Positions 1 to 30,676 of a stretch of DNA of 30,676 bases are shown here, in pieces. Under the pieces are notes generated by a model. The model saw only the letters and a program-made list of their open reading frames with translations, was not told the origin of the DNA and did not search any database. Origin of the DNA: a virus; the IMG/VR virus record IMGVR_UViG_3300030098_004595, positions 22,830-53,505 of that record; one strand, written 5' to 3'. Each line of letters opens with the position of its first letter. Positions within the stretch are counted from its first letter, which is position 1. A program made the position numbers and the translations under genes.

Positions 1-2162
1 CTATCAACTGCATTTACAGCTTCAATTAAATTAATCTTTAATCCATTTTGTTCTAATTGCCTGTATGCATCATCAATATATTCAGTCAATACATCAAAGT
101 CCATGCGTCTGCCATGAGTATAAGGCTTATTTTTTATTTTCCTACCTTTTGCATCTACATAATGACTAGCAAATGTTATATCTCCATCCTTATTGATGTA
201 TCTAGGTAAGGCTTCCATCATTAAGCCTCTTTCCATAGTAGCTTTTAATTGAGTAGCCTGATTAATTTTAGAATGATCAATTTCTTCTTTAGATTTTAAG
301 CCTACAGTTAAATCTATTTTATCTTCAATAACTTGTAGCTGATTTATCATCTCTTCTAATTCAAGCTTTTTATCAATGACTTGCTGTCCTACCGCTGATG
401 GATTATCTTGATGTTCATCTTGAATTGCTGCAATATCTCTTTCTTTTTCACTAATACGAACCTCTAATGCATCTCTATATTCCATGCTATTAATTAATAT
501 ATCTTTTATAGGATATCTGTAGGTAATATAATCTTCTACATGGTTATAATGATGATTCATGGATATTACTTTTCCATATTTATTAACATAGAAGTTCATA
601 TTTATATTATCAAATCCTAATACATCAGCAAGTATTTTATTTAAATCGTTCTTACTTTTTCTACTAAGCTCAGATAGACTGATTCCCTTTTTCTTTGCAG
701 CCTTATTTAAAGCAGTAGTTAAAAAAGCTTCTTGCTCTATTACTGTTTTTGTAATATCCCCATATATATTCCTCATAATGCGTCTAATTTCAGCGACCAT
801 CCTCCATTCTGAATCAGAAACATCAGATTGATCTTCTTTAAACTCATAGTCTTGATAGGTTTTAATAGTAAATGATTCACCGTCTTTATCAAGCCCACTC
901 ATTGGCTTAGTAAGTGTAGAATTATAATATCCCTCACGCATCATACCAATAGTCATTGAATCTTTTTTAGGGTCTGATGCAAATTCTTTATATGTAGGGG
1001 CTAATCTTGGTATAGAAAAGAAATCAAGCCATTGTTTAGCATTATATGTCTTCATTGGGTTCATTAAGCTATCATTTTTTATCTTAACTCCCTTAACAAC
1101 TTCTCCTGCTGGGATGTAAGGCACTTCATATGCATAATATATTTCTCTTCCACCAGCCATCACTTCTTTTATTGGGATAAAATAACTATTTCTTCCATCA
1201 ATTTCTATCTTTTGTATCTGCCCTCCTGCATTCCAGTTTTGCTTTATATTTCTTTCTAGTATTTCTTCATATTTCTTTTTATGTTGCAAATTTTCAAATC
1301 TATAGCCAGGCCTTTTATTATTTTTATCAAGATCCCAACCAACAACTCTCTTAGGGATTAGATACATCTCTTGTCTATCTAATTTTTTATGTACTGATTC
1401 AATTAAATCATCTATATTTTTATTACTGTTGTTAGCAAAATGCTTTAATCTTTCTAATGCAACAGATAAAGCAAGTTTATGTGGAGCAGCTTTAGAATAC
1501 ATATTATCAGTCATTGACCTAGCTTGTTCAGTAAATTTATATCCAGCTAAACTTACATCAGTTTCAAATAATAATGATGCTGGGTCTCTTAATTCAAAGA
1601 AAGCTCCATCTTCTAACTTTCTTTTTTGTGCATTAGCTTCTGCTTTCTTAAATGATTTGTCTAAAGTATTAGCTATAGATACTAAGGTATTAACATCTAG
1701 ATCTGTCAACCTATTGAATGGTAATGTAAATTGTCTTGATATCCACTCTTTAATTGTAGGGATTTGAGTATGAGGATTGACATCATATACATTATGCTCT
1801 GCATATCTTACAAGCCTATCCATTATAATCTTATTAATTTTCTTTAAAGTTCTTTGCTTTTTTTCAAAGTTTTTATAATCTCTGTCGTACTTAGATCTTT
1901 TATTTCCAAGTTCTAATATTTGTTTATCAACATCTGCTAGCTCCTGACTAGCTCCCTGTTTCTTTAAAATCCTTTTTTGATTACTTAACTCTTTTATTTT
2001 AGCTGTCATCTTTTTAGATGCACTTTTAAATGCTTCTTTACTAAATAAAGGTACACCAAAATTTGCCTGATAAACTGTTTCAAATGTATCAAGTAAATTA
2101 TTTATCTCAGATTCAGCAGCCTCTGTATTGACTTGTTGTGGTATATCGCATATTTCTTTCAT
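1..2162 (-). CDS. Giant internal virion/ejection-block protein, 3' end beyond window
   Basis: I translated this frame by hand from the ATG at 2162: it stays open for 720 codons to the window edge, so the C-terminus is missing. The start overlaps the stop of the upstream gene as TAATG, pointing to translational coupling. Residues about 45 to 115 are very rich in Lys, Glu and Gln and look like a coiled coil; a second charged helical stretch lies near residues 570 to 640. The rest is mixed charged sequence with no motif I recognise, no signal peptide and no obvious membrane span. It is the third giant gene in a row after two other ejection-block genes, so a role as an internal virion protein injected with the DNA, or as a partner of the polymerase-like protein upstream, is an inference from position only. 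Confidence 0.8.
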   Translation of the reverse strand, partial: MKEICDIPQQVNTEAAESEINNLLDTFETVYQANFGVPLFSKEAFKSASKKMTAKIKELSNQKRILKKQGASQELADVDKQILELGNKRSKYDRDYKNFEKKQRTLKKINKIIMDRLVRYAEHNVYDVNPHTQIPTIKEWISRQFTLPFNRLTDLDVNTLVSIANTLDKSFKKAEANAQKRKLEDGAFFELRDPASLLFETDVSLAGYKFTEQARSMTDNMYSKAAPHKLALSVALERLKHFANNSNKNIDDLIESVHKKLDRQEMYLIPKRVVGWDLDKNNKRPGYRFENLQHKKKYEEILERNIKQNWNAGGQIQKIEIDGRNSYFIPIKEVMAGGREIYYAYEVPYIPAGEVVKGVKIKNDSLMNPMKTYNAKQWLDFFSIPRLAPTYKEFASDPKKDSMTIGMMREGYYNSTLTKPMSGLDKDGESFTIKTYQDYEFKEDQSDVSDSEWRMVAEIRRIMRNIYGDITKTVIEQEAFLTTALNKAAKKKGISLSELSRKSKNDLNKILADVLGFDNINMNFYVNKYGKVISMNHHYNHVEDYITYRYPIKDILINSMEYRDALEVRISEKERDIAAIQDEHQDNPSAVGQQVIDKKLELEEMINQLQVIEDKIDLTVGLKSKEEIDHSKINQATQLKATMERGLMMEALPRYINKDGDITFASHYVDAKGRKIKNKPYTHGRRMDFDVLTEYIDDAYRQLEQNGLKINLIEAVNAVD

Positions 2163-5100
2163 TATTTACAAGCCTTTCTTGCTTCCTGTATTAATGCTGT
2201 AGTAGGATTCTTCTTCTTTCTTAAATCAGCCATAGATTTATAATCAACAGTTGTATCTTGGTGATATTTTCCTGCTTGATCTGCATAATATATTAAATAT
2301 TCATTATCAAATACAATAGGATCAGGTAGATATTTAATATTTGCCCTGCCTTTAAACCCATAGAGCATATTAAATGTAAATACTTTACGAACCTGTTCAC
2401 CAGCATCATTAAGCTCGTTGTTATACTTATCTAACAGTTCATAAAGATCTTCATCAAACCTTGCTTGCTTATTAATAATATGTTTTTCTTTTACTTCTTC
2501 ATTTGTTGTTTCTTCTACGTTTTGCCCTTCATGCTCTTCATTTTTAGGATAAAATTCGTCAGCAAATCTATCAGCAATATCTTGACCTATCTCTAAATCA
2601 TCTGCATCTATTTTTCCATCTTTAATGTCTTGTGCTATATATCTAGCTAAATCTCTTCTTGCAAGAAAATGAGACATATCTTCTCTTTTTTCGTTATATA
2701 CTAATGGAGCTTCTACTTTATCTTGAGGAGTAAATGAATCTTTAAATTTATCTGCCATTCTTAATAAAAATTCTTCAGTAGGAGTACTTTCATTTATTAC
2801 TTCAATATCTTTAATGCTTAATGCAGATTGCTTATATGAACCATCAGTTTGTTTTAACTGTATAGCATTAGTTATTCTTACACCTTCTTGAATTACTTTC
2901 TTTAAAGCTTCAGGAGATGCATCTTTTCTAGATCTTACCCCATCTAATGCATGCATAAATAATTTAAAACTCATTCTATCTCTTGAATTTGGAGTTTGAG
3001 CTTTCTTTAATGCAGAGAATTTATAATTTTTAATTAGACCAGGGCTATTTTTAGTACCAGTTATCATTTTATAATGATGCTTAGTTAGTTTTCCTTCAAC
3101 ATGGAACATTCTATCTAAGTACCATTCATACTTAACAGCTCCCCATTTAGCAGTAAGCATCCCAGACTTGGTTATATCTACTGCTGCATTTGCAATCAAT
3201 AAAAACTCATGCTCTGCAGTAGTCTCTAAATATTTATCTCCTAAGCCAGCATTCCAATCTACCCACTTTCTAGTTTCACTATCATAACCAACCAATCTTG
3301 CATTGTCTGGAATATCATATTTAGTTATATCATCATTCAATGGAGCATAATTCATAATAACTTTATCAGTCATTTTCTTTGGAGTAATTGTTACTCCATC
3401 ATTAAATTCAATCTTTCCAAACTTTTTAGATATGATTGAAGCCATATTTTTTAGGTTTGTTGCAAGGCCTTGACTGTTGCTGCCATACATCAATGTCATA
3501 ATAGATCTACGTAATTCTATGGGGTTTGCAAAGCTAAATGTATCGGGCTTTTTAAATATACCAATATCTGCATTTACTGATTTACGCTCTTTATACCAAT
3601 TAGTTTGCTGGAATGATTGTATAATTTTTAAATCTTCATTTTTTATAACAATAACAGATGCTTTATCATAATCGTTATCTCCAACCAATCTAATTGCTGT
3701 ATCATTAATATGGTGATATATTGCATTACCTTCATTTTTTGTAAATTCCTGTATCATTCTTGGTTCTAAGCCAACAATCTGCAATAATGGAAATCTATAA
3801 GTTAGTACAGCTACATTATTTTCTTCGAGCCAGTAATTTACAGCATCAACCTTATCTTCATAAGGCAACTCATTAAAATCTTTTTTACCTTGATCATCAA
3901 ATGTTTCAAGCATTTTATCTACAGTATCATTAAAGATAGTTGCATTGTCAGCAGACAGTATTACCTTACCTTCTTCTACTTTTCTACCGGGCTTCATTAC
4001 ATATGTTGAACCTTTATAGCCACCATCCATTAAACTATTTAGTTTAGCTGGTGTAGTACGCCCCTGCAGGACACCTTTTACAACTAGCATATTCATAATC
4101 ATTGGTCTTAACATAGTTAAATTATTAGCAAGATGAATACCTTTACCTTTAGTAATACCTAAGAATGTACGTAATGCTAATTTAGCTTCGGCTCTATCGC
4201 TAAAGTTATATTTAACTATTTCCCATAATACTTTAGGATCTTTAGTTGCATTCATCAAAAGATTACTATACCTATCTGCTTGCTCAAATAGTATATTAGA
4301 TAAAGTTTCTTGATACTTTTTAAAGTCAGCTGCAACAGTTTTGTCTTTAATGTCAAAGTTTAAGTTTTCTAGTATTTGACCGAAGCCAGATGTACTATCA
4401 GATGATTTAGGCCTTGGAGTAATTATAACCTGCCTTGAAGACTCTTGTAATCTAAACTTGCCAAACACTCTATTCTTTTTACGTATATCATATACTCCAG
4501 TAGTAGTTTTAACTGCATCTAGGTCAGAAATTTGATGTATGTAATTTCCATCACCATCTTTAATACGAAGTTTCCCCATCTCTTTTATCATCTTAACTAT
4601 AACAGTTCCATCTTTTTTTCTTATTTCTAGTCCGGGAATACCTACAAACTCAGCATGCTTCTTCTCAATTGTACCCGCAAATGTGCCATCGTCATTTCTG
4701 GTATGCTCATGCCAAACAGTTTTTATTTCTTTAATATTCCCCTCATCATCATAAATTTTATAGACTCCAATTCTCTGACCAGTTTCGTCTAAATATTCTT
4801 CACTAACAAATGATGCTCCATCAAATATATTAACTTTTCCCTTAATACCAGGGACATCTGCTAAGTGTTCATATCTCTCACCATCTAAATAATATTCTAC
4901 TCTATCTTGGTCATAAATAATATGCTCTGATGGACCCATACCAGTAGTAACAATGCCATCACTTAAAGGAATTTTAATCCTATCCATAATTTCTAATGCA
5001 CTGCCATCCTTTATTGTCATAAAGTTATCACCTCTGACTGCTTGCATCCATTCATATGCAGCAATTCTTCCAGCAAAATGTATATAATCTGGAACTTTTA

Positions 5101-6577
5101 TATTGCCTACCTGATTTGTTGCAGCATTGTCAGCATTTTCTATATAAATTTTTTCTTGCCCTGGATTTAAATTGCCTTTTTTTAATTCTTCTTTAAAATA
5201 TAATTCTAACCGTGAAATCATAAATGGCTTTAAAGCTTTTTGTAAATCTTCAAATTGTGCTTCTTTCCCAGCTAACTCTAATTGCTCCTCTTTTTTAATT
5301 TCTCTTGAGACTCTTTTCCTTTTAATATTATCAGTCTTTTTTTCTAATTGCTTTAAAAGAGATGCCATTGTCCTAGGATATGATTCTACATATTCAATCA
5401 ATTCAGCAGAAAAGTTTAAAGCTTTCATATACTTAATAACTGCATCTTTAGGGAGTATAAAGTTAAAGATTTGAGGATTAATAAATGTGCTTATTAATCT
5501 ACCATTGTCCCCAGGTCTCATGCCAACAAGCACAGCAGGTGCATCTTTTTTGTTGAACTTTAAATTAGCTAGTTTATATTCTAATAGCTCTAAATCTTTT
5601 TGCTTAAACTCAGAAGTATCTTCAAACATTGACCAGCTATCATCTTTTTTATGTGCTACTAATTTCCCAGAGTTTTTTAAATTAATAAATAGAGTGTAGG
5701 ACTCGACAGACTTCCCTCTAATTTTATTTTTTAAACTATCAATGAAACTTTTCCCAACAGTAGACGGTTGTTCTTTTTTATCTTTTAGGCTAATTTGAGG
5801 GTTAAGAACTAACCTTTTATCATTAGCAGGAAGTATAGCATCTCTAACACTTTCAACAGAATCAATAACAGCACTTCCATCTAAGTTGGTATAAATTAAT
5901 TCTTTTACAGCTGTAAATTTTTGACTATTTAATTCATTGTGAGTATTATAAAAAACAGTTATTAGTCTTTTACGTGCTTCTAAATTTTTATTATAATTTG
6001 GACTTCTTGTATCTAAGCCACTATCATGAATTAATGGGTCTAAAAATTGATCATATACCCAATCATAAAAATCATTTGAGTCATTAAATATACTAGCTGC
6101 ATCAAATAATTTAGCTCTTTCTTCTGGCTTTAATTTTCTTCCAATAGCAGTATTGAATGCTACTTCAAATGGGTCCATCCCAGACTCGGTTACATTATAA
6201 CCGCCCGGTCTTAATACTTGATCATCACTATCAAAATCTGTATCTTCATCTCTTCCAGATTCATTAAGGGATTCACTTTTAGATCCACCGTCAGATACAA
6301 TAGAATTTTTTAATGGAGAAGATGCATATGCTAAATCAACTACTTCACCAGAATCAAACAATAAACCTAAGTCAATACCTTTTATCTCAAGAATTGCTTC
6401 AGTAAATATATCAATCATATCAGGACGCTCTTGAGCAATTGTATTATATAATATCTTTGCTACTTTACTCTTGTCATCATTTGGGAATTTATCTATGTAT
6501 TCTCTTATAATAGCTTCCATTCGTGAAGCAACTGATCCAATATTATTTAAATTTGGGCATGTAGAAAATCTAGCCAT
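2162..6577 (-). CDS. Candidate virion-packaged RNA polymerase (multi-subunit-type, single chain)
   Basis: 1471 residues, starting with ATG after an AGGAGA site that overlaps the preceding TAG. Residues 921-971 resemble the catalytic double-psi barrel of RNA polymerase beta-prime: NVAVLTYRFP (R928, P930), G936, then G-D967-N-D969-Y-D971, giving the Asp-x-Asp-x-Asp metal triad 39 residues after the Arg (35 in E. coli, R425 to D460). Residues 1027-1045 resemble the F-loop (M..MYGS, then N1041, M1045), and 1131-1144 the bridge helix (AAVDITKSGMLTAK, compare SGYLTRR). A possible beta-like barrel lies at 833-862 with K845 and K855-G. No trigger loop was recognised. The N-terminal 450 residues are helical and charged, with a basic cluster KRKR near 419. 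The usual Gly of DFDGD is Tyr here. Expected role: early transcription after ejection into the host, as in phages that package their polymerase. Alternative: a structural ejection protein with chance motifs. Confidence 0.65.
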   Translation of the reverse strand: MARFSTCPNLNNIGSVASRMEAIIREYIDKFPNDDKSKVAKILYNTIAQERPDMIDIFTEAILEIKGIDLGLLFDSGEVVDLAYASSPLKNSIVSDGGSKSESLNESGRDEDTDFDSDDQVLRPGGYNVTESGMDPFEVAFNTAIGRKLKPEERAKLFDAASIFNDSNDFYDWVYDQFLDPLIHDSGLDTRSPNYNKNLEARKRLITVFYNTHNELNSQKFTAVKELIYTNLDGSAVIDSVESVRDAILPANDKRLVLNPQISLKDKKEQPSTVGKSFIDSLKNKIRGKSVESYTLFINLKNSGKLVAHKKDDSWSMFEDTSEFKQKDLELLEYKLANLKFNKKDAPAVLVGMRPGDNGRLISTFINPQIFNFILPKDAVIKYMKALNFSAELIEYVESYPRTMASLLKQLEKKTDNIKRKRVSREIKKEEQLELAGKEAQFEDLQKALKPFMISRLELYFKEELKKGNLNPGQEKIYIENADNAATNQVGNIKVPDYIHFAGRIAAYEWMQAVRGDNFMTIKDGSALEIMDRIKIPLSDGIVTTGMGPSEHIIYDQDRVEYYLDGERYEHLADVPGIKGKVNIFDGASFVSEEYLDETGQRIGVYKIYDDEGNIKEIKTVWHEHTRNDDGTFAGTIEKKHAEFVGIPGLEIRKKDGTVIVKMIKEMGKLRIKDGDGNYIHQISDLDAVKTTTGVYDIRKKNRVFGKFRLQESSRQVIITPRPKSSDSTSGFGQILENLNFDIKDKTVAADFKKYQETLSNILFEQADRYSNLLMNATKDPKVLWEIVKYNFSDRAEAKLALRTFLGITKGKGIHLANNLTMLRPMIMNMLVVKGVLQGRTTPAKLNSLMDGGYKGSTYVMKPGRKVEEGKVILSADNATIFNDTVDKMLETFDDQGKKDFNELPYEDKVDAVNYWLEENNVAVLTYRFPLLQIVGLEPRMIQEFTKNEGNAIYHHINDTAIRLVGDNDYDKASVIVIKNEDLKIIQSFQQTNWYKERKSVNADIGIFKKPDTFSFANPIELRRSIMTLMYGSNSQGLATNLKNMASIISKKFGKIEFNDGVTITPKKMTDKVIMNYAPLNDDITKYDIPDNARLVGYDSETRKWVDWNAGLGDKYLETTAEHEFLLIANAAVDITKSGMLTAKWGAVKYEWYLDRMFHVEGKLTKHHYKMITGTKNSPGLIKNYKFSALKKAQTPNSRDRMSFKLFMHALDGVRSRKDASPEALKKVIQEGVRITNAIQLKQTDGSYKQSALSIKDIEVINESTPTEEFLLRMADKFKDSFTPQDKVEAPLVYNEKREDMSHFLARRDLARYIAQDIKDGKIDADDLEIGQDIADRFADEFYPKNEEHEGQNVEETTNEEVKEKHIINKQARFDEDLYELLDKYNNELNDAGEQVRKVFTFNMLYGFKGRANIKYLPDPIVFDNEYLIYYADQAGKYHQDTTVDYKSMADLRKKKNPTTALIQEARKACK

Positions 6578-6585
6578 TTACTCTC

Positions 6586-9500
6586 CTATAGACAAAAGTC
6601 TTCATCAATTTCTTTATTAATATTATCAGCTTCATTTTTAATATCTTGGGCTTGAGTTTCTTCAGATTTAATAATCTTAGATACAATACCTGATATTTCC
6701 TGAGTTTCTTCATTAACCTCTTTTATTGCTTGTACAATAGCATCAGTAGATATAGTAGGTGCTTTTCTTTGTTCTATTAATTCTCCCCCTAGTTGATATA
6801 ACTCTGCTTCTGCTTGACCTTGCAATGCAAGTACTGGAGAATTTTTCTTTTCATTTATTGCTAGCAATCTATCTTTTTGCTCTTCAGTTAATAAAACTTT
6901 CTCTCCATCTACTATAGCATGGGCTTCTTTCCTAGATTTAGCAGGAGGGAATTGAACCCTATTAGGTATATCTAAATATGCTTCCCCTTTAAGATCTTCT
7001 TGCTTATCAAAAATCAAATCAAATCCAGCTTTTTTTAATTTTGGATTAAATGTTTCTTTAAGTGCATTAACACCTTGAGTTAATAATTCTATATATTCAT
7101 CAAGTAATTTTTGATCTTTCTTTGATAAATTAGCCTTCCATTTATCTGTATTATTATCCCAAAAATTAGATACAACTTTCATTAATTCTTCAAATCTAGC
7201 CTGAGAAGCTAGTAAAGGCTTTAAGCCAGGCAATCCCTTGATAGTCTCAGTGTTTATTTTTTGAAGTACTGAACCAATCCCGCCAAGTGAGTATTCTCCA
7301 GCTAAACTATTATAAGTATTTTTCCATTTAGCCAGCTTTAAATTATCTCCAGGAAAATCTATCCATTGAAAAGTCTTCCCTAATTTATCTACAGCATCAT
7401 ATTTCGCTTGAGAAGGATTATCTTTACTAACTGGAGTATCTAGTTGTACTTGTTCTTCAAGCTTTTGTCTTTCAACTTTAGCGGCACTTAATTCTCTTTC
7501 AGCAAGTTCTACTTTCTTAATTGTTTCCTTTTGAAAAGGTTCTGGCATAAAGCCTTCTGTTGAAGTTTGTGTAGCAAGCTCTTTCTTAGCCTTTGCAACT
7601 TTTTCTTTTGCCTTTTTTTCTTTAGCAATAACCTTTTTATACTTAGGGTTCTTATCAAGCTTATCTTGCATGATTTCAAGTCTTGTTTTTTGAACTGGAT
7701 CTTTTTGTTTAGATAGCCATTCTTCAGTTGATTTAATCTGAGCATCAATAGCTTCTATTTCTTTACCTTTTGTTATAGCTTCTTTAATTATAATATTTCC
7801 ATCTAAAGTTTTAGCTTCACGTTTTCCATATTTCTTTTTTTGTAGCTTTAATACTTTTAAATCTGCTTCTTCATTTGCTATTTTTGTAATATCTACATAA
7901 TCTTGTGTTGCAGTTCCATCTTCAAGCCCATCAAGAGCATCAAGATAAATCTTACGAGCAGCACTTGCTTCTTTTTTAGCTTTCTTAATATCTTTATTAA
8001 GCTGTCTATTTTGGTCTACAGTTAGTACGCCTTCTGCAGCAGTTTCTTTTTTAGTTGGAGCTTTTGTAGGCTTTGCTGTCTCTTTTTCTTTTCTACCTAG
8101 TTTTAATGCAGCTATTCTAGCTTTAACATCTGGTATTTCATCTTTAGTAATTTCATCTGACTCTAAATACTTTTCACTTCTTGCTATAGCTTTATCTATT
8201 GCTTCTATAGTCTTTGGTATTCTAAATTTTTTAGGGCCTACTTCTTCAAATACTCCAGGTGCAACCTCTTTATACTCTGGTTTCTTTTCTTCTACTACAG
8301 GAGGAGCTTCTTTAACCTCACGCTTAGGCTTATCTTTCTTTGATTGCTCTTTCTTTAAGGTAGAAATTGTTTGACCTTTAAATTCCTGTGAAAATTGATC
8401 AGCAAATAACATTAATGTACCAGATACATGTTCTATAACAGCCTCTCTTTTAGAGCGTATCTCATCCGGTTTAAATTCTAGACCTAATGTTTTAGATAGT
8501 TTGTTAAGGGTAGTATTATTTGCTTTGCCTTTACCGCTCCTAAGCCTATCATACAACCATTGCTCTCCATTCTTTAAATACCCAAGCATTAATGCCGCTT
8601 GTAGTTGAGCAGGTTGAAGATTCTTTTTATTTATATTACCTAAATCTACACCTTTAGCAAGAGTTTGCAGTTGACCAAGACCATTATCTTCATCTACTTT
8701 ACTGTCTATTTTGCTTTGGAATTTATCATCAAGCTTTTTCTCAAGCTGTATATCAAGCTTTTCTGATAGCATTTCTTCATATCTATTTTCTGCTACTGCA
8801 TCTAATACATCATCAGTGCTAAATTCACCAATAGTACGCTTAATATCTTCAAGCTTTTTAGCATTCTTTGTGCCTTTAACTTTTTCATGTGCTTCTATAG
8901 ATTTAGATTTAGTAAGATAGTTTGCAACTTCTCTTTCAAGTGCTTTTACAGTATTGTCCTCTAGCCCCAACTGTTTAAATATATTTGCATTACCTGATTG
9001 ACTGACTATATCATATGCTTTTCTTCCTATATCACTATCATACTTAGCACCTTTGATAATTAGTTTCTGAACATTATTTGGATTCTTACCAAATGCTTTT
9101 TCATATTCAGTATTCGCTTTTATTTCACTAAGTTCTAATTGGCCTGCTAATAAATTAGCATAATCTTCTATAGTATTAAATTCTCTATTAATTGCTATGT
9201 TAGCATTTGAATCGCCTTCATCATTAATATCTTCATAGTCATATACTTCTCTATTAGACAAATCAGATCTAAACTGTTCAGCCATTTTAACGGCTTCAGC
9301 TTCAGTACCAGCATTATAAACATAATAAGGAAGGTCATCTTTTATTAATGTAATTACAGAGCCATCTTGGTCAATGCTAAAGCCCGCTCTAGTTCCATCT
9401 TTTCTTTTTTCTGCATGAAATGCAGCTTTATATTGCTTCCATGCTCTAGCAGGCCTTCTGCCAATTGCAGGCACACCAGGTATAATACTTCCTGACATTC

Positions 9501-10960: not shown

Positions 10961-12457
10961 CTACCTTAATATTGTTTCAAGTCTTGTACTGCTCAATTCT
11001 TCGTCTGCTTCTTCTAATGTAAGATATCCATAGATAAGACTAGCAAATGTTTTTTCAATAGCACGTTGTTTTTCATTTTTGCCAAGGAGGCCACCAGTTT
11101 CAAAGCCTGCAAAATACTCTTGCAAGTCTGATAATGTAATTTCACTTATAGTCTTACCTTCTTTAGCAAACTGACTGACAATATTAACAAAAATACCTTG
11201 AGCATCTACATCGCTATATGATAAGGGTTTAATATCAACTCCAGATAAAGAAGTATAGGTTTCGTCTTCAAACTCATTAGCAAGTATTTTAATGTTATGT
11301 TCATATTTTTGACGTAAATCAGCTAAAGTACGTCTGTCTAAGTTTTGATCTTGTTCTGGTTGGAATGGTATAAGATCTGGATGAACTAATTCTCTACCAG
11401 ATTTAGGCCTATTGCTATCCTTATAGTACATAGCACTATTGCTATCAGAAGATCTTTCTTTTACTATATTACCCCAGCTATCCCATGCACTATCTTGAAT
11501 GCCTTGTTCAGCTTTATCAAACCATTCTTGAGCTTTATCATATTCGCCTCGTTGCAAGTGTTTATAAGCACGTTGCATTTTTGAATCATCTAACTGATAC
11601 CCTTTATATTTAACAATCTTATTATGTTCATAGATAGATTTTAGTTCTTCTTCATTAAACTGCTTAATTGGATACCTTTGTTTAAACTGTTCAAAAGATT
11701 CTTCTTGTTTTGGCATTGTATCATGGCCACTTATATCTTCTGATAAATTTGCTAAATTAATAACATCATTTCTATGATCGTTTAAATCATTAAATGCTGA
11801 CGCAGAACTGTTCCCTCTGTATTGTTTTGCAACTTGATCTAAATTACCTAAAACATCAATAATATCACTAGTTTCTAATTCATCAGAAAGCTTGGATAAT
11901 TCATTCTTAGCTTCTGCAATAGAAGACTGAATAACAGTGTCATTACGCAATATATTTCTATTTGCAACAATATTTTTTCTTAAATTTTTAGCTAAACTTT
12001 GGTTTACTGAACCTCTTACTTGACCTAATCCATTATCAAAAATATTTAATGCTGTTGTATACTCTTGATCACTCTTAAATTTAGATGCATTATCTGTTAA
12101 GTCTTCAAGTGATTTCATTAATTGAGCTTGATATTCAGCCTCAACCCTTCCATTATAACGCCTAGTCATAACATCTTTCATTGTATTAGCAATTTTAATA
12201 TTTTCATCGCCAACAACTTCTTTAGCCTTAGTGTCAAACAATTCCTGTGCAATCTCTAGCTCGTAATCTGCATCATAATCTTTAATAGCCAATGATTCTA
12301 ATGATCTTAATATACTAGCTTGAGTCGAGTCTGCCTCACCTTCTTTAGCTTTCTTGTAATCTAATGCTATATCAGCAAGCCCAGTAAGAGTTTTATCTAA
12401 TGCTTCCATTTGCTGTTGTTGAATGCTCTTAGAGCCAAATTGTTTATATTCTGACAT
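10961..12457 (-). CDS. Helical internal virion protein
   Basis: 498 residues, almost entirely predicted-helical from composition (Gln-, Lys-, Glu- and Asp-rich), with no cysteine, signal peptide or membrane segment. One short stretch around residues 296-316 (LQRGEYDKAQEWFDKA) has the look of a single TPR-type helix pair. The ATG overlaps the stop of the upstream gene as TAATG. The gene is followed within 4 bases by the 1456-residue ejection-type gene. Helical, Gln-rich proteins of this size between tail genes and giant internal proteins are the usual place of the mid-sized internal core protein in podoviruses (position of T7 gp15), but I see no sequence match to gp15, so the role rests on context. 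Confidence 0.72.
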   Translation of the reverse strand: MSEYKQFGSKSIQQQQMEALDKTLTGLADIALDYKKAKEGEADSTQASILRSLESLAIKDYDADYELEIAQELFDTKAKEVVGDENIKIANTMKDVMTRRYNGRVEAEYQAQLMKSLEDLTDNASKFKSDQEYTTALNIFDNGLGQVRGSVNQSLAKNLRKNIVANRNILRNDTVIQSSIAEAKNELSKLSDELETSDIIDVLGNLDQVAKQYRGNSSASAFNDLNDHRNDVINLANLSEDISGHDTMPKQEESFEQFKQRYPIKQFNEEELKSIYEHNKIVKYKGYQLDDSKMQRAYKHLQRGEYDKAQEWFDKAEQGIQDSAWDSWGNIVKERSSDSNSAMYYKDSNRPKSGRELVHPDLIPFQPEQDQNLDRRTLADLRQKYEHNIKILANEFEDETYTSLSGVDIKPLSYSDVDAQGIFVNIVSQFAKEGKTISEITLSDLQEYFAGFETGGLLGKNEKQRAIEKTFASLIYGYLTLEEADEELSSTRLETILR

Positions 12458-13536
12458 TATGGTCTAGGGCCTCCATATGTTCCTCCTACGTTTCCACCCC
12501 CTGGGTCATCAAGTCTCTCATACCCTGGAGTTGATGCACGATCAATTGTTTCTATTTGGAGTCCAGCATAAAACTCATCAATATCAATTGACCCATCATT
12601 TAATTGATTCATAAGATTATCTATATACTCTTCTGAAAGTCCTGAATCTTTTAGGCGACTTAGAGAAAGTCTAAGATACTCAGGTTCAATCCCATATTCA
12701 AGAGCAAAATCAATATAATCTATTGCTTTATCTTCAGCTAATCCTAACCCTGTAAGTGAGTCATCGCCTTCATAAATTAAATCATAATCTTGACCTTCAG
12801 GATCTGTAAAAAATAAATCTTTAACATTTTTAGCAATAGAAATCTCCCATGCTTCCTGCATATTATCAACTTCTTTTGCAAGATCTAAATTTAATGACTC
12901 TGTTCTATTTTCAAGATTAGTAAGCTTCATATTGTAAGCTGCATCATATTTAACAGACTCTAAATCTCCAATTCGTCCTTCTACCCAATCTCCATCTTCT
13001 GCATAATAGCCAGTATTACGTTTAATATCATCTATAGATTTAATGGTCTTTTTTCTTGAATATGCATGTGAAGCATTGGCAGTATTAATTTTACTCTTAA
13101 CCGCATCATATGCAAGATTGGTAATATCTTCTCCAACATGAATGCCAGTTTTAGCTTGAGTAGCAGTGATATTATTTAATTCAGTTAATGCACCTAAAGT
13201 AATTGCATCTTTTTTCAATTGATGATTATGTTTAGCTTTTGACATATTGTTCTTTAGATTACTAAGATTCATTTCAGAAATTTGCTGTCTAAACCCTGTA
13301 TTCTTTTTTAATCTATCTTCTTCTTGCTCTATAAATATATCAAGATTTTCTTGAAGATGGTCTTTTTTTATTCCAGTTTGTTCTGTTGAAATATCTTCAC
13401 GTAAAGTATTATAATCAAAGAATAATGCACCATAATTGTCATATAACTCATCAGCATTTCTAAAGCCTAATTCTCTCCATTTATCTTCATACTTAGTCCA
13501 ATATAGATCCATAGGGCCTAAATTATTATTTGCCAT
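12457..13536 (-). CDS. Internal virion-type protein, unrecognised family
   Basis: 359 residues with an ATG preceded by an AGGAGG site 5 bases upstream. The N-terminal two thirds are charged and helical (Lys/Glu/Asn-rich, possible coiled coil about 60-115), the last third is acidic with short helices, and the final 20 residues are a flexible Gly/Pro tail. It has no cysteine and no membrane segment. It overlaps the next gene by one base (TAATG), so the two products are probably made in matched amounts and may act together. The setting, between a coiled-coil/Cys-rich protein and a helical internal protein, suggests a virion-internal or ejection function. I do not recognise the family. Confidence 0.7.
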   Translation of the reverse strand: MANNNLGPMDLYWTKYEDKWRELGFRNADELYDNYGALFFDYNTLREDISTEQTGIKKDHLQENLDIFIEQEEDRLKKNTGFRQQISEMNLSNLKNNMSKAKHNHQLKKDAITLGALTELNNITATQAKTGIHVGEDITNLAYDAVKSKINTANASHAYSRKKTIKSIDDIKRNTGYYAEDGDWVEGRIGDLESVKYDAAYNMKLTNLENRTESLNLDLAKEVDNMQEAWEISIAKNVKDLFFTDPEGQDYDLIYEGDDSLTGLGLAEDKAIDYIDFALEYGIEPEYLRLSLSRLKDSGLSEEYIDNLMNQLNDGSIDIDEFYAGLQIETIDRASTPGYERLDDPGGGNVGGTYGGPRP

Positions 13537-22182: not shown

Positions 22183-22967
22183 TAATTACCGTCCAATACT
22201 TCTCCCCATAAAGAGGTTTTACCTTCTATGATTGATACTATATGCACAGTAAAGTGACCTTTATCATAAAAGTCAACTACAGCAAAAGCATGAGACCAGT
22301 TATGCGGCCTACCATTTAACCATGCATTTTGCTCTTTACTCATATCTTTTAAACATCCTATACTCCATGCACTAATAGGACCTGATAAATGAGTAATACT
22401 GCTTTGTTGTATATCATGGTGATGACCATACATAATACTTTCTCCTAATCTTTGTAAATGATTACGAGTATGCTGTATGCCTGCAAACTGATTCCCATGA
22501 TAAAAGTTTAAATTACCTATCTTAAGAAATTCACTATTAGGATGGTATATCCATCCCCGCTCTTCAAGCCGAATAGAGTTCTTAAATAAATAAGTATCAG
22601 CTAAATATGGATGTTCATCTACAAAACGATTCATCCAGTCATCATGATTGCCTTCGATCATATGCCTTTCATCACACCCAGCTTTATCTAAAGCATCATC
22701 AATAAAATCCATACCAACGTTGACATCTTCAATATCTTTATCTATAAAAGGCATTTGATATTCAAGTGGAGGTCTTTTCTTTTTCTTCCACTGCCAATGA
22801 GAACAGCCATGCCATTCTCCTACATCTCCCAGATCAATATAAATATCTGGCTTTACTATATCGATAGCCTGAGCTAAAACATTCATAGCCGGACCATCTG
22901 CCAAAGGATAGTGCTTATCTGGGGTTACAATTGCCCTCTTAACCGCACTTTTTTTCTTTCTAGGCAT
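22182..22967 (-). CDS. Calcineurin-type metallophosphoesterase
   Basis: 261 residues with ATG after AGGAGA. The metal-binding motifs of the calcineurin-like phosphoesterase superfamily are visible in order: D17-x-H19, G47-D48, G106-N-H108-D109, H157 (NFYHGNQ) and G181-H-H-H184. These ligands hold two metal ions and cleave phosphomono- or diesters. No signal peptide or membrane segment is present, and the N-terminus is very basic (MPRKKKSAVKR), so it may be cytoplasmic and bind nucleic acid or phospholipid. The motif set does not reveal the substrate; protein phosphatase, nuclease and nucleotide phosphodiesterase activities occur in this fold. It is sandwiched between two membrane-protein genes and overlaps the downstream one by a single base, which is an unusual setting for this enzyme. 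Confidence 0.88.
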   Translation of the reverse strand: MPRKKKSAVKRAIVTPDKHYPLADGPAMNVLAQAIDIVKPDIYIDLGDVGEWHGCSHWQWKKKKRPPLEYQMPFIDKDIEDVNVGMDFIDDALDKAGCDERHMIEGNHDDWMNRFVDEHPYLADTYLFKNSIRLEERGWIYHPNSEFLKIGNLNFYHGNQFAGIQHTRNHLQRLGESIMYGHHHDIQQSSITHLSGPISAWSIGCLKDMSKEQNAWLNGRPHNWSHAFAVVDFYDKGHFTVHIVSIIEGKTSLWGEVLDGN

Positions 22968-29023: not shown

Positions 29024-30676
29024 TTAAGATTTATCATTCTTGTCTTGCAGGTTTTTTATGTGATTAGAAACATTATCTTGCAACCTGCGGTTTTCATTGT
29101 CAAGATTACGCTGCCTCTCATTACGCAACATTTTCTGTTGTGTACGAGTTTCATTGTATTCTTTATCCATCGCACTATTTGCATTATCACGCTTCTTATT
29201 AATCTCCATAGCAGCTTGCATTACTTTGCCTTTTATACCAGCTTGTACTAATTGACGCTGTAAAGTTTCAATTGTACCTTGTGCATCTTTAAGCTCAGAT
29301 TCCATGCTACTAACTTGTCCTTGCAATCTAGAATATGTACTTTTACGCTTAGCAATACTTTCTTTATTTCTGATATCGGTTTCTGATAACAGGGCGATAT
29401 CATCAATAACACCTAATTGCATAAGCTCTTTTAGCTCGTCCAAATATGCCCAGCGATTAACAGGCAAGGTTGAACCAGCAACAATCCTAACATCAAACTT
29501 AGCTGAGGCATAATCTTTAAATTTACCTACAGCTTCACCAAGATCATTGTACATTGGTACATTAATCTCAATTTCTTTTTCTTCATGTAATGCATTTGGT
29601 TGCACTACTCTAAATACTTTATTTGCAGTATATACAGATTGAGTAAATTGGGCTGTTATAATACCCAACTGTTTTAACGCAGGCTCTACAGAGTTTTTAA
29701 GCCATTGCTTTACTCTACGTGTACCATACTCATCCATTGCAAGCATACCTCTATATGTTTCATGCTGAGCCCTAGTGTCTCCTTGCATTGCCCCATATAT
29801 ACCAGCTAAATACTCCATATCTTGCTTGCCCTCATTAACAATGCCAAAAAATGCATTAGATAATGGAGCAGGTTGCACTGGAGTAGGAGGAGTTGCACCT
29901 GGCCTTATTGGCAATAACGCTCCAGGTGAGCTTGCATATTGCTCCCAGTAATCTGTATCAATACTACCTTCTTCATGCATCCATCTTAAACTACTTCCCA
30001 AAGATGCATTGTGTACCATTAATTGATGTGCTTTATTCATCTCTCTTTGCTTACCTATTAATGGTGATACTGCAGAAATTGGATATGGTGTGCCAGTCCA
30101 TTTAAAATGGAAAGGAACAATAGGGTACTCAGTAATTCTATCTGGAAGGTACTTAGTATATATTGTTTTATCTCCAATAACTACAGTTTGCTTAATCCTT
30201 GTTCCAAAAAACGAAATTCTATCAATAACTAAAGATGCAAAAGTTTTATCTTTCATTAAGATATTAAACTCTTTTTCGCTAATAATTTTATTCTCTACCT
30301 TAGAAGCCTCTGCTTGCAGTTCTGACATGTATTCTTGCCTTGCTGCATTTAATTGCTGACTCATTAATTCTTGAGCTTTTTTTATTTCTAAATTATATCT
30401 CTCCTCTATCATAGATCCAGATTCTACTGCTTGTCGCATTTGTTGATCTTGTTCTTTTAGCTTGACCATCATTTCTTCAGTCATCTCTTTAAGGCGAACA
30501 TCAACTTGCATTTTAATACGATTTAATTCAGATTGATCTGGTGGAACCCTATAGAAAACATTAATATAAGGAATTTTTTCTTTCTCATAAACCTCAAAAA
30601 GCTCTAATAGTTTATCGCCTTCTCCAGTCTTAGGGTCTATGCTTTCACCTTCTTCAATATCTTTATAATCAAAATC
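29024..30676 (-). CDS. Portal protein (5' end beyond window)
   Basis: The frame stays open from the TAA at 29024 to the window edge, so 550 residues are seen and the N-terminus is missing; the in-frame ATG at 30511 is internal. The core ends with strands and helices typical of P22-like portals: TEYPIVPFHFKWTGTPYPIS, then GKQREMNKAHQLMVHNASLG, and further ETYRGMLAMDEYGTRRVKQWL. These correspond to the clip/stem region of podoviral portals, the ring through which DNA enters and leaves. Unusually, about 75 residues of the visible N-terminal part (about visible residues 56-130) are a Gln/Glu/Met-rich coiled coil inserted before the core. The last 100 residues are highly charged helix, as for a portal barrel. 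Confidence 0.85.
   Translation of the reverse strand, partial: DFDYKDIEEGESIDPKTGEGDKLLELFEVYEKEKIPYINVFYRVPPDQSELNRIKMQVDVRLKEMTEEMMVKLKEQDQQMRQAVESGSMIEERYNLEIKKAQELMSQQLNAARQEYMSELQAEASKVENKIISEKEFNILMKDKTFASLVIDRISFFGTRIKQTVVIGDKTIYTKYLPDRITEYPIVPFHFKWTGTPYPISAVSPLIGKQREMNKAHQLMVHNASLGSSLRWMHEEGSIDTDYWEQYASSPGALLPIRPGATPPTPVQPAPLSNAFFGIVNEGKQDMEYLAGIYGAMQGDTRAQHETYRGMLAMDEYGTRRVKQWLKNSVEPALKQLGIITAQFTQSVYTANKVFRVVQPNALHEEKEIEINVPMYNDLGEAVGKFKDYASAKFDVRIVAGSTLPVNRWAYLDELKELMQLGVIDDIALLSETDIRNKESIAKRKSTYSRLQGQVSSMESELKDAQGTIETLQRQLVQAGIKGKVMQAAMEINKKRDNANSAMDKEYNETRTQQKMLRNERQRNLDNENRRLQDNVSNHIKNLQDKNDKS

Follow-up and report, generated by a model that had tools for sequence, protein, structure and literature searches.

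A probable, very divergent crAss-like virion RNA polymerase in an uncultured short-tailed phage, encoded among cargo chains with cysteines at their facing ends

The closest described counterpart of the locus analysed here is the virion RNA polymerase of phage phi14:2 (gp66 in the literature, locus gp077 in the sequence record; PDB 6VR4), which is encoded between gp078 and gp076. The giant RNA polymerase ejected by the short-tailed phage N4, gp50, has a T7-like single-subunit fold. Among single-chain enzymes with two barrels, QDE-1 of Neurospora carries the lysines of its first barrel, DPBB1 (K743 and K767), ahead of the aspartates of its second, DPBB2 (D1007-D1011), at a distance of 240-264 residues from D1007 (PMC1750930). 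Phage P23-45 has two single-chain two-barrel RNA polymerases, gp64 and gp96, the latter a virion RNA polymerase fused to the tail tape measure (PMC10770324), and for crAss001 the presence of the cargo proteins in the virion was shown by mass spectrometry (PMC10172136).

Gene layout and relatives of the probable polymerase chain

The stretch of DNA analysed (the window; 30,676 nucleotides) comprises bases 22830-53505 of the 53,505-base IMG/VR record IMGVR_UViG_3300030098_004595. Its cargo genes and their upstream neighbours are the following:

3-2162, minus strand: P0003, third cargo chain, cut by the window edge and by a 10-base N gap in the record
2162-6577, minus strand: P0001, putative single-chain two-barrel (crAss-like) virion RNA polymerase, 1471 aa
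6586-10956, minus strand: P0002, first cargo chain, 1456 aa; most relatives have it joined to the polymerase chain
10961-13536, minus strand: two upstream virion proteins of 498 and 359 aa, both cysteine-free

The gene order P0002-P0001-P0003 (large cargo, polymerase, large cargo) beside structural genes matches gp078-gp077-gp076 of phi14:2, and the simplest reading of this match is a crAss-like virion RNA polymerase set that is ejected at infection. The assignment of P0001 as a putative polymerase is based on its RxP...DxDxD motif, its position in the cargo series, a remote profile alignment to crAss RNA polymerases, and its location at the same site as proteins of 2,900-3,200 aa in relatives. 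Unlike this shared layout, pairwise sequence similarity to phi14:2 was not detectable, and the polymerase chain has 1471 aa in the window (phage record of 53 kb) as against 2180 aa in phi14:2. A ribosome-binding site, GGAG, lies immediately ahead of P0001.

Just outside the window, a 10-base N gap (L003:10820-10829; record bases 22820-22829) splits P0003 from a 499-aa open reading frame. P0003 and this reading frame match a 1,239-aa protein of G001, the nearest relative, and the reading frame is probably the C-terminal part of P0003. The portal gene seems to span both ends of the record (window 29024-30676 and L002:1-783), so the record probably represents an almost complete genome that is circular or circularly permuted. 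Further genes in the record encode a 274-aa class II tRNA synthetase-like protein (L002:6462-7286, minus strand; Pfam tRNA-synt_2, D/K/N type, E 1.5e-15) and a 601-aa primase fused to a DnaB-like helicase (L003:5279-7084, plus strand), whose primase part resembles those of Thermus phage P23-45 (with the annotation of a eukaryotic-type small subunit) and others. Ahead of the rightward early genes, approximately 3 kb (L002:7990-11138) hold one tRNA-Met and no open reading frame of 90 aa or more. No repeated early-promoter motif emerged from a search for them.

Searches of Pfam, PHROGs, PDB sequences and isolate phages with P0001 gave nothing useful. A terminase search recovered at least 80 related contigs (75-88% identity), and G001 is the only record with a P0001 homologue recognisable at the sequence level (48% identity over the core); scans of viral contigs with P0001 or with alignments of the window protein and G001 returned G001 and no other. 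The remaining complete relatives encode at the same site a single protein of ~2,900-3,200 aa, its length being that of P0002 plus P0001, and this fusion of the first two chains sets most relatives apart from phi14:2. We sorted the giants of the relatives into groups B to F, with W denoting the type of the window protein (two sequences, including G001). Most of them carry R/x-x-P...DxDxD, across several very divergent groups.

Profile comparison connects groups B, C and F, and links E strongly to D and more weakly to B. The link of W to C is weak (E 0.01) and falls exactly on RxP...DxDxD. In profile comparisons with ten crAss-like RNA polymerases, the first or second match of all six groups, W included, fell on this same motif, each match being weak alone; for the triad segment, hhalign matches to crAss-like polymerases had E values of 0.26 (W), 0.033 (C) and 0.0012 (F). 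The global mode of hhalign was uninformative.

AlphaFold prediction of P0001 from W and 15 mostly remote sequences reached a pLDDT of 37, and the fold search with this model yielded noise and no PDB match. The core of group B was modelled with a mean pLDDT of 72.7 (pTM 0.67). Using Foldseek, this model of a P0001 relative matched one PDB chain at E <0.001, chain A of 6VR4, which is the virion RNA polymerase of phi14:2 (E 3.4e-4, probability 0.99). Given the low TM-score of the model to 6VR4 (0.25), the match is one of parts and not of overall shape.

Asp triad, predicted barrels and candidate lysines

The motif shared with the crAss-like enzymes comprises two elements in P0001:

3665-3679, minus strand: D967-N-D969-Y-D971, predicted metal-binding triad of the beta-prime-like barrel (GDNDYDKA)
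3788-3796, minus strand: R928-F-P930, the RxP ahead of the triad

The Asp triad lies where the earlier note had placed it: D967, D969 and D971 are invariant in G001, and the DxDxD expected of two-barrel RNA polymerases is aligned across all divergent groups. RxP occurs in W and G001, throughout group C, in nearly every group B sequence and in the crAss RNA polymerases, while groups D, E and F retain P alone; it may be compared with RAPTLHR of the cellular beta-prime subunit. A beta-prime-like barrel would extend over approximately residues 805-985 and carry the Mg-binding D967, D969 and D971.

Motif, gene order, homologues and the fold match of a relative to the phi14:2 enzyme support the proposal, made in the earlier note, of a one-chain two-barrel polymerase of the QDE-1 or crAss type. 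We consider it likely that P0001 is the virion-packaged two-barrel RNA polymerase chain of this phage, with K640 and K673 rather than K845 and K855 as candidate lysines, and it probably adds a new, highly divergent member to the crAss-like virion RNA polymerases. The polymerase would be kept in the phage head alongside P0002 and P0003, exit through the tail together with them, and in the host transcribe early phage genes.

P0001 could instead be an ejection or internal virion protein other than a polymerase, with RxP...DxDxD arising by coincidence or persisting as a decayed relic of an ancestral polymerase. The poor model of P0001 and the lack of a sequence-level match to any RNA polymerase family would fit such a protein, the motif arises in 1.4% of shuffles of P0001 (a chance that applies to one protein), and neither the DHDID-E of G001 nor the DNDYD-K of the window is the canonical DFDGD. 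We nevertheless judge this unlikely, since the motif occurs at the same site in most of 26 divergent relatives, among them G018 with DFDGD, since W and G001 both keep all three Asp, and since the fold of group B matches the phi14:2 polymerase.

As a two-barrel polymerase, P0001 would share with QDE-1 the arrangement of DPBB1 ahead of DPBB2 on one chain; QDE-1 differs in being an RNA-silencing enzyme, in its spacing of 240-264 residues, and in that no sequence match to it was found. P23-45 gp96 resembles the giants of the relatives in holding a two-barrel RNA polymerase inside a giant virion protein, but P23-45 is a long-tailed phage, the fusion partner is another, and homology to P0001 was not detected. 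Similar to P0001 as read here, the cysteine-free N4 gp50 is a giant RNA polymerase ejected by a short-tailed phage, but it has neither two barrels nor end cysteines.

The earlier note had further proposed that residues 833-862 form the beta-like barrel and that K845 and K855 are its two active-site lysines. Two features delimit this region:

3991-4081, minus strand: residues 833-862 of P0001, aligned to the segment that precedes RxP...DxDxD in relatives
3932-4012, minus strand: residues 856-882, GSTYVMKPGRKVEEGKVILSADNATIF, the part of this region that is conserved

Residues 833-862 of P0001 (open reading frame 6577-2162, minus strand) have the sequence VKGVLQGRTTPAKLNSLMDGGYKGSTYVMK, in which K845 and K855 are spaced by 10; letters and position had been given correctly to within one base, with the triad downstream as described. 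The likeness to the beta-subunit block is weak; it is local, as LQG...K...YKG, and does not extend to K-x7-K with RHGxKG: the cellular block GDKxxxRHGxKG has its lysines 8 apart, and P0001 has a spacing of 10, no GDK and no RHG. Nor are the two lysines conserved. G001, the only close homologue, has R or L opposite K845, depending on gap placement, and H opposite K855, so the proposal fails on the test of conservation that the earlier note itself had set. Kept in G001 near this stretch are R840-T-T, Y859 and K862-P-G-R...G870, in addition to the triad, RxP and EGNAIYHH. G870 is aligned in all 16 sequences of alignment A5, and residues 856-882 correspond to strands E417-421 and E440-443 of the group B model. 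By the same alignment, the stretch with K845 and K855 falls where the beta-prime-like barrel of the relatives opens; most likely, it belongs to the start of that barrel or to the linker preceding it.

That residues 833-862 are the beta-like barrel is thus highly improbable, despite the local likeness and a position upstream of the triad. Beyond the loss of both lysines in G001, K845 and K855 are 112-122 residues ahead of D967, less than half the distance in QDE-1 (240-264) or phi14:2 (296-334), shuffling P0001 20,000 times yields a loose form of the proposed motif 168 times (0.8%), and the invariant lysines of the relatives sit far upstream instead. These point to another region of P0001:

4418-4750, minus strand: predicted beta-like barrel (DPBB-B), residues ~610-720
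4721-4723, minus strand: K619, candidate partner of the invariant K1801 (L115 numbering), aligned in 16 of 16 sequences and kept in G001
4658-4660, minus strand: K640 (EKKHA), candidate active-site lysine of the beta-like barrel
4559-4561, minus strand: K673, candidate second active-site lysine, chosen by spacing and kept in G001

Before the triad, groups B and C share invariant K-P, GKT and SxxK (K1801, K1822 and K1854 in L115 of group B), followed by RxP and DxDxD. The L115 positions fall in strands of the group B model, and in an alignment of group B with ten crAss-like polymerases these lysines come to lie near the invariant K1012, K1027 and K1065 of phi14:2. Residues ~610-720 of P0001 are co-linear with both sets. 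Opposite the GKT lysine of groups B and C, alignment A5 places K639 in the aligned column, and K639 and K640 are both kept in G001. The spacing of K619, K640 and K673 is 21/33, compared to 21/32 in L115. K640 and K673 precede D967 by 327 and 294 residues, similar to the 334 and 296 residues between K1027/K1065 and D1361 of phi14:2, if these invariant lysines are taken as the equivalents of the DPBB1 lysines. K690 (DAVKT) had also been considered as a beta-type lysine and was dropped, as K619, K640 and K673 fit the spacing of groups B and C and of phi14:2 better.

The beta-like barrel thus appears better placed at residues ~610-720 than at 833-862. In this position it would lie ~300 residues upstream of the beta-prime-like barrel and supply the active-site lysines, for which K640 and K673 are the best candidates, and the order of the two barrels anticipated in the earlier note would be retained. 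As the model of the window protein itself failed (pLDDT 37), we infer the positions of K619, K640 and K673 from the co-linear lysines of groups B and C and of phi14:2; since W comprises two sequences only, the alignment that places K640 and K673 is a shaky one. That P0001 is a two-barrel enzyme of another kind, e.g. a PolD-like or primer-making polymerase, is barely credible: PolD has the same two-barrel core and two lysines (PMC4996933) and no DNA polymerase gene was recognised among the open reading frames of at least 90 aa in the record, but both the gene order and the fold match of group B specifically favour a crAss-like virion RNA polymerase.

Cysteines at the ends of the cargo chains

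The cargo chains of the window carry cysteines only next to the breaks between them. The sole Cys of P0002 is residue 1455 of 1456 (window 6592-6594, minus strand), and P0003 has one at residue 5 (2148-2150, minus strand), a second one past the N gap being an artefact. P0001 has two in all, residues 7 and 1470 of 1471:

6557-6559, minus strand: C7 of P0001, the end cysteine near the N-terminus, towards P0002
2168-2170, minus strand: C1470 of P0001, the end cysteine near the C-terminus, towards P0003

The same pattern was found in the relatives. In 24 of them the giant is unsplit; its available sequence contains a single Cys, 0-3 residues from the C-terminus, and the chain after the giant has a Cys at residue 3-12, which is its sole Cys wherever the chain could be read to its end. 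G001, split like the window, has a Cys pair at every break. Over the 26 marine genomes taken together, a cysteine is present at each of the 56 facing ends, a count in which some giants come from partial open reading frames or from contigs cut at one end and in which related genomes are not independent. The virion proteins upstream of and next to the giant have no Cys, and many other proteins of the genome have 0.5-2.5%. The end-cysteine pattern is real in the sample examined.

An out-of-sample test in crassviruses revealed Cys pairs at chain breaks and none at fused junctions. Members of the Steigviridae, with separate chains (phi14:2, crAss001, DAC15, cr126, cr106), have Cys at the facing ends examined. 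In the Suoliviridae (cr55_1, cr118_1, cr50_1, cr10_1, cr115_1) and Fpv1, where the first two chains are fused, and in the Intestiviridae (crAss002, ZA, cr271, cr110_1; start codons of crAss002 and ZA reassigned to an MSC common to both), where the last two are fused, Cys is found at the remaining break only. Looser cases are crAss001 gp50 and cr10_1, with the Cys 8 and 10 residues from the end, cr110_1 (residue 17), and crAss002 and ZA with their reassigned starts. Some chains of gut crassviruses have internal Cys as well; the three large chains of phi14:2 have none, and the phi14:2 cargo thus resembles that of the window in carrying cysteines at facing ends only. Other ejected giants, N4 gp50 and T7 gp15 and gp16 (L154, L151), are cysteine-free and have no end cysteines. 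T7 gp14 has a single Cys, at residue 2.

Gene overlap or ribosome-binding signals were rejected as the source of the end cysteines, as the Cys lies at differing distances from the stop or start; moreover, crAss001 and cr106_1 encode the two chains on opposite strands, which argues against a nucleotide effect. Native chemical ligation is unlikely, given that the N-terminal Cys is at residues 3-12 and not first. In open-access papers, we found no mention of cysteines at chain ends, or of disulfides, for ejection proteins or the cargo of crassviruses. The mechanism we prefer, on what we see as an evenly balanced case, is a disulfide tether from one chain to the next; alternatives are links between homodimers, metal binding, and attachment to another part of the virion. 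Extending the disulfide tether, we tentatively propose that solitary end cysteines join the cargo chains head to tail. One long protein train would then be threaded through the tail in order and come apart in the reducing cytoplasm. Loss of Cys elsewhere in the chains would ensure that no unintended links arise, and in evolution a Cys pair would appear at the break where a chain is split and be absent where chains are fused.

Meaning for short-tailed phages

The assignment of P0001 would extend crAss-like virion RNA polymerases to widespread uncultured, mostly marine short-tailed phages for whose polymerase there are no isolate relatives, and would show how far these enzymes can diverge with the triad retained. 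The end-cysteine rule is the most novel result and possibly the more important of the two. It offers a concrete, testable answer to how very large proteins may be ejected in order through a narrow podovirus-type tail, a question left open in the structural work on crAss001, and cultured crassviruses already allow it to be checked.
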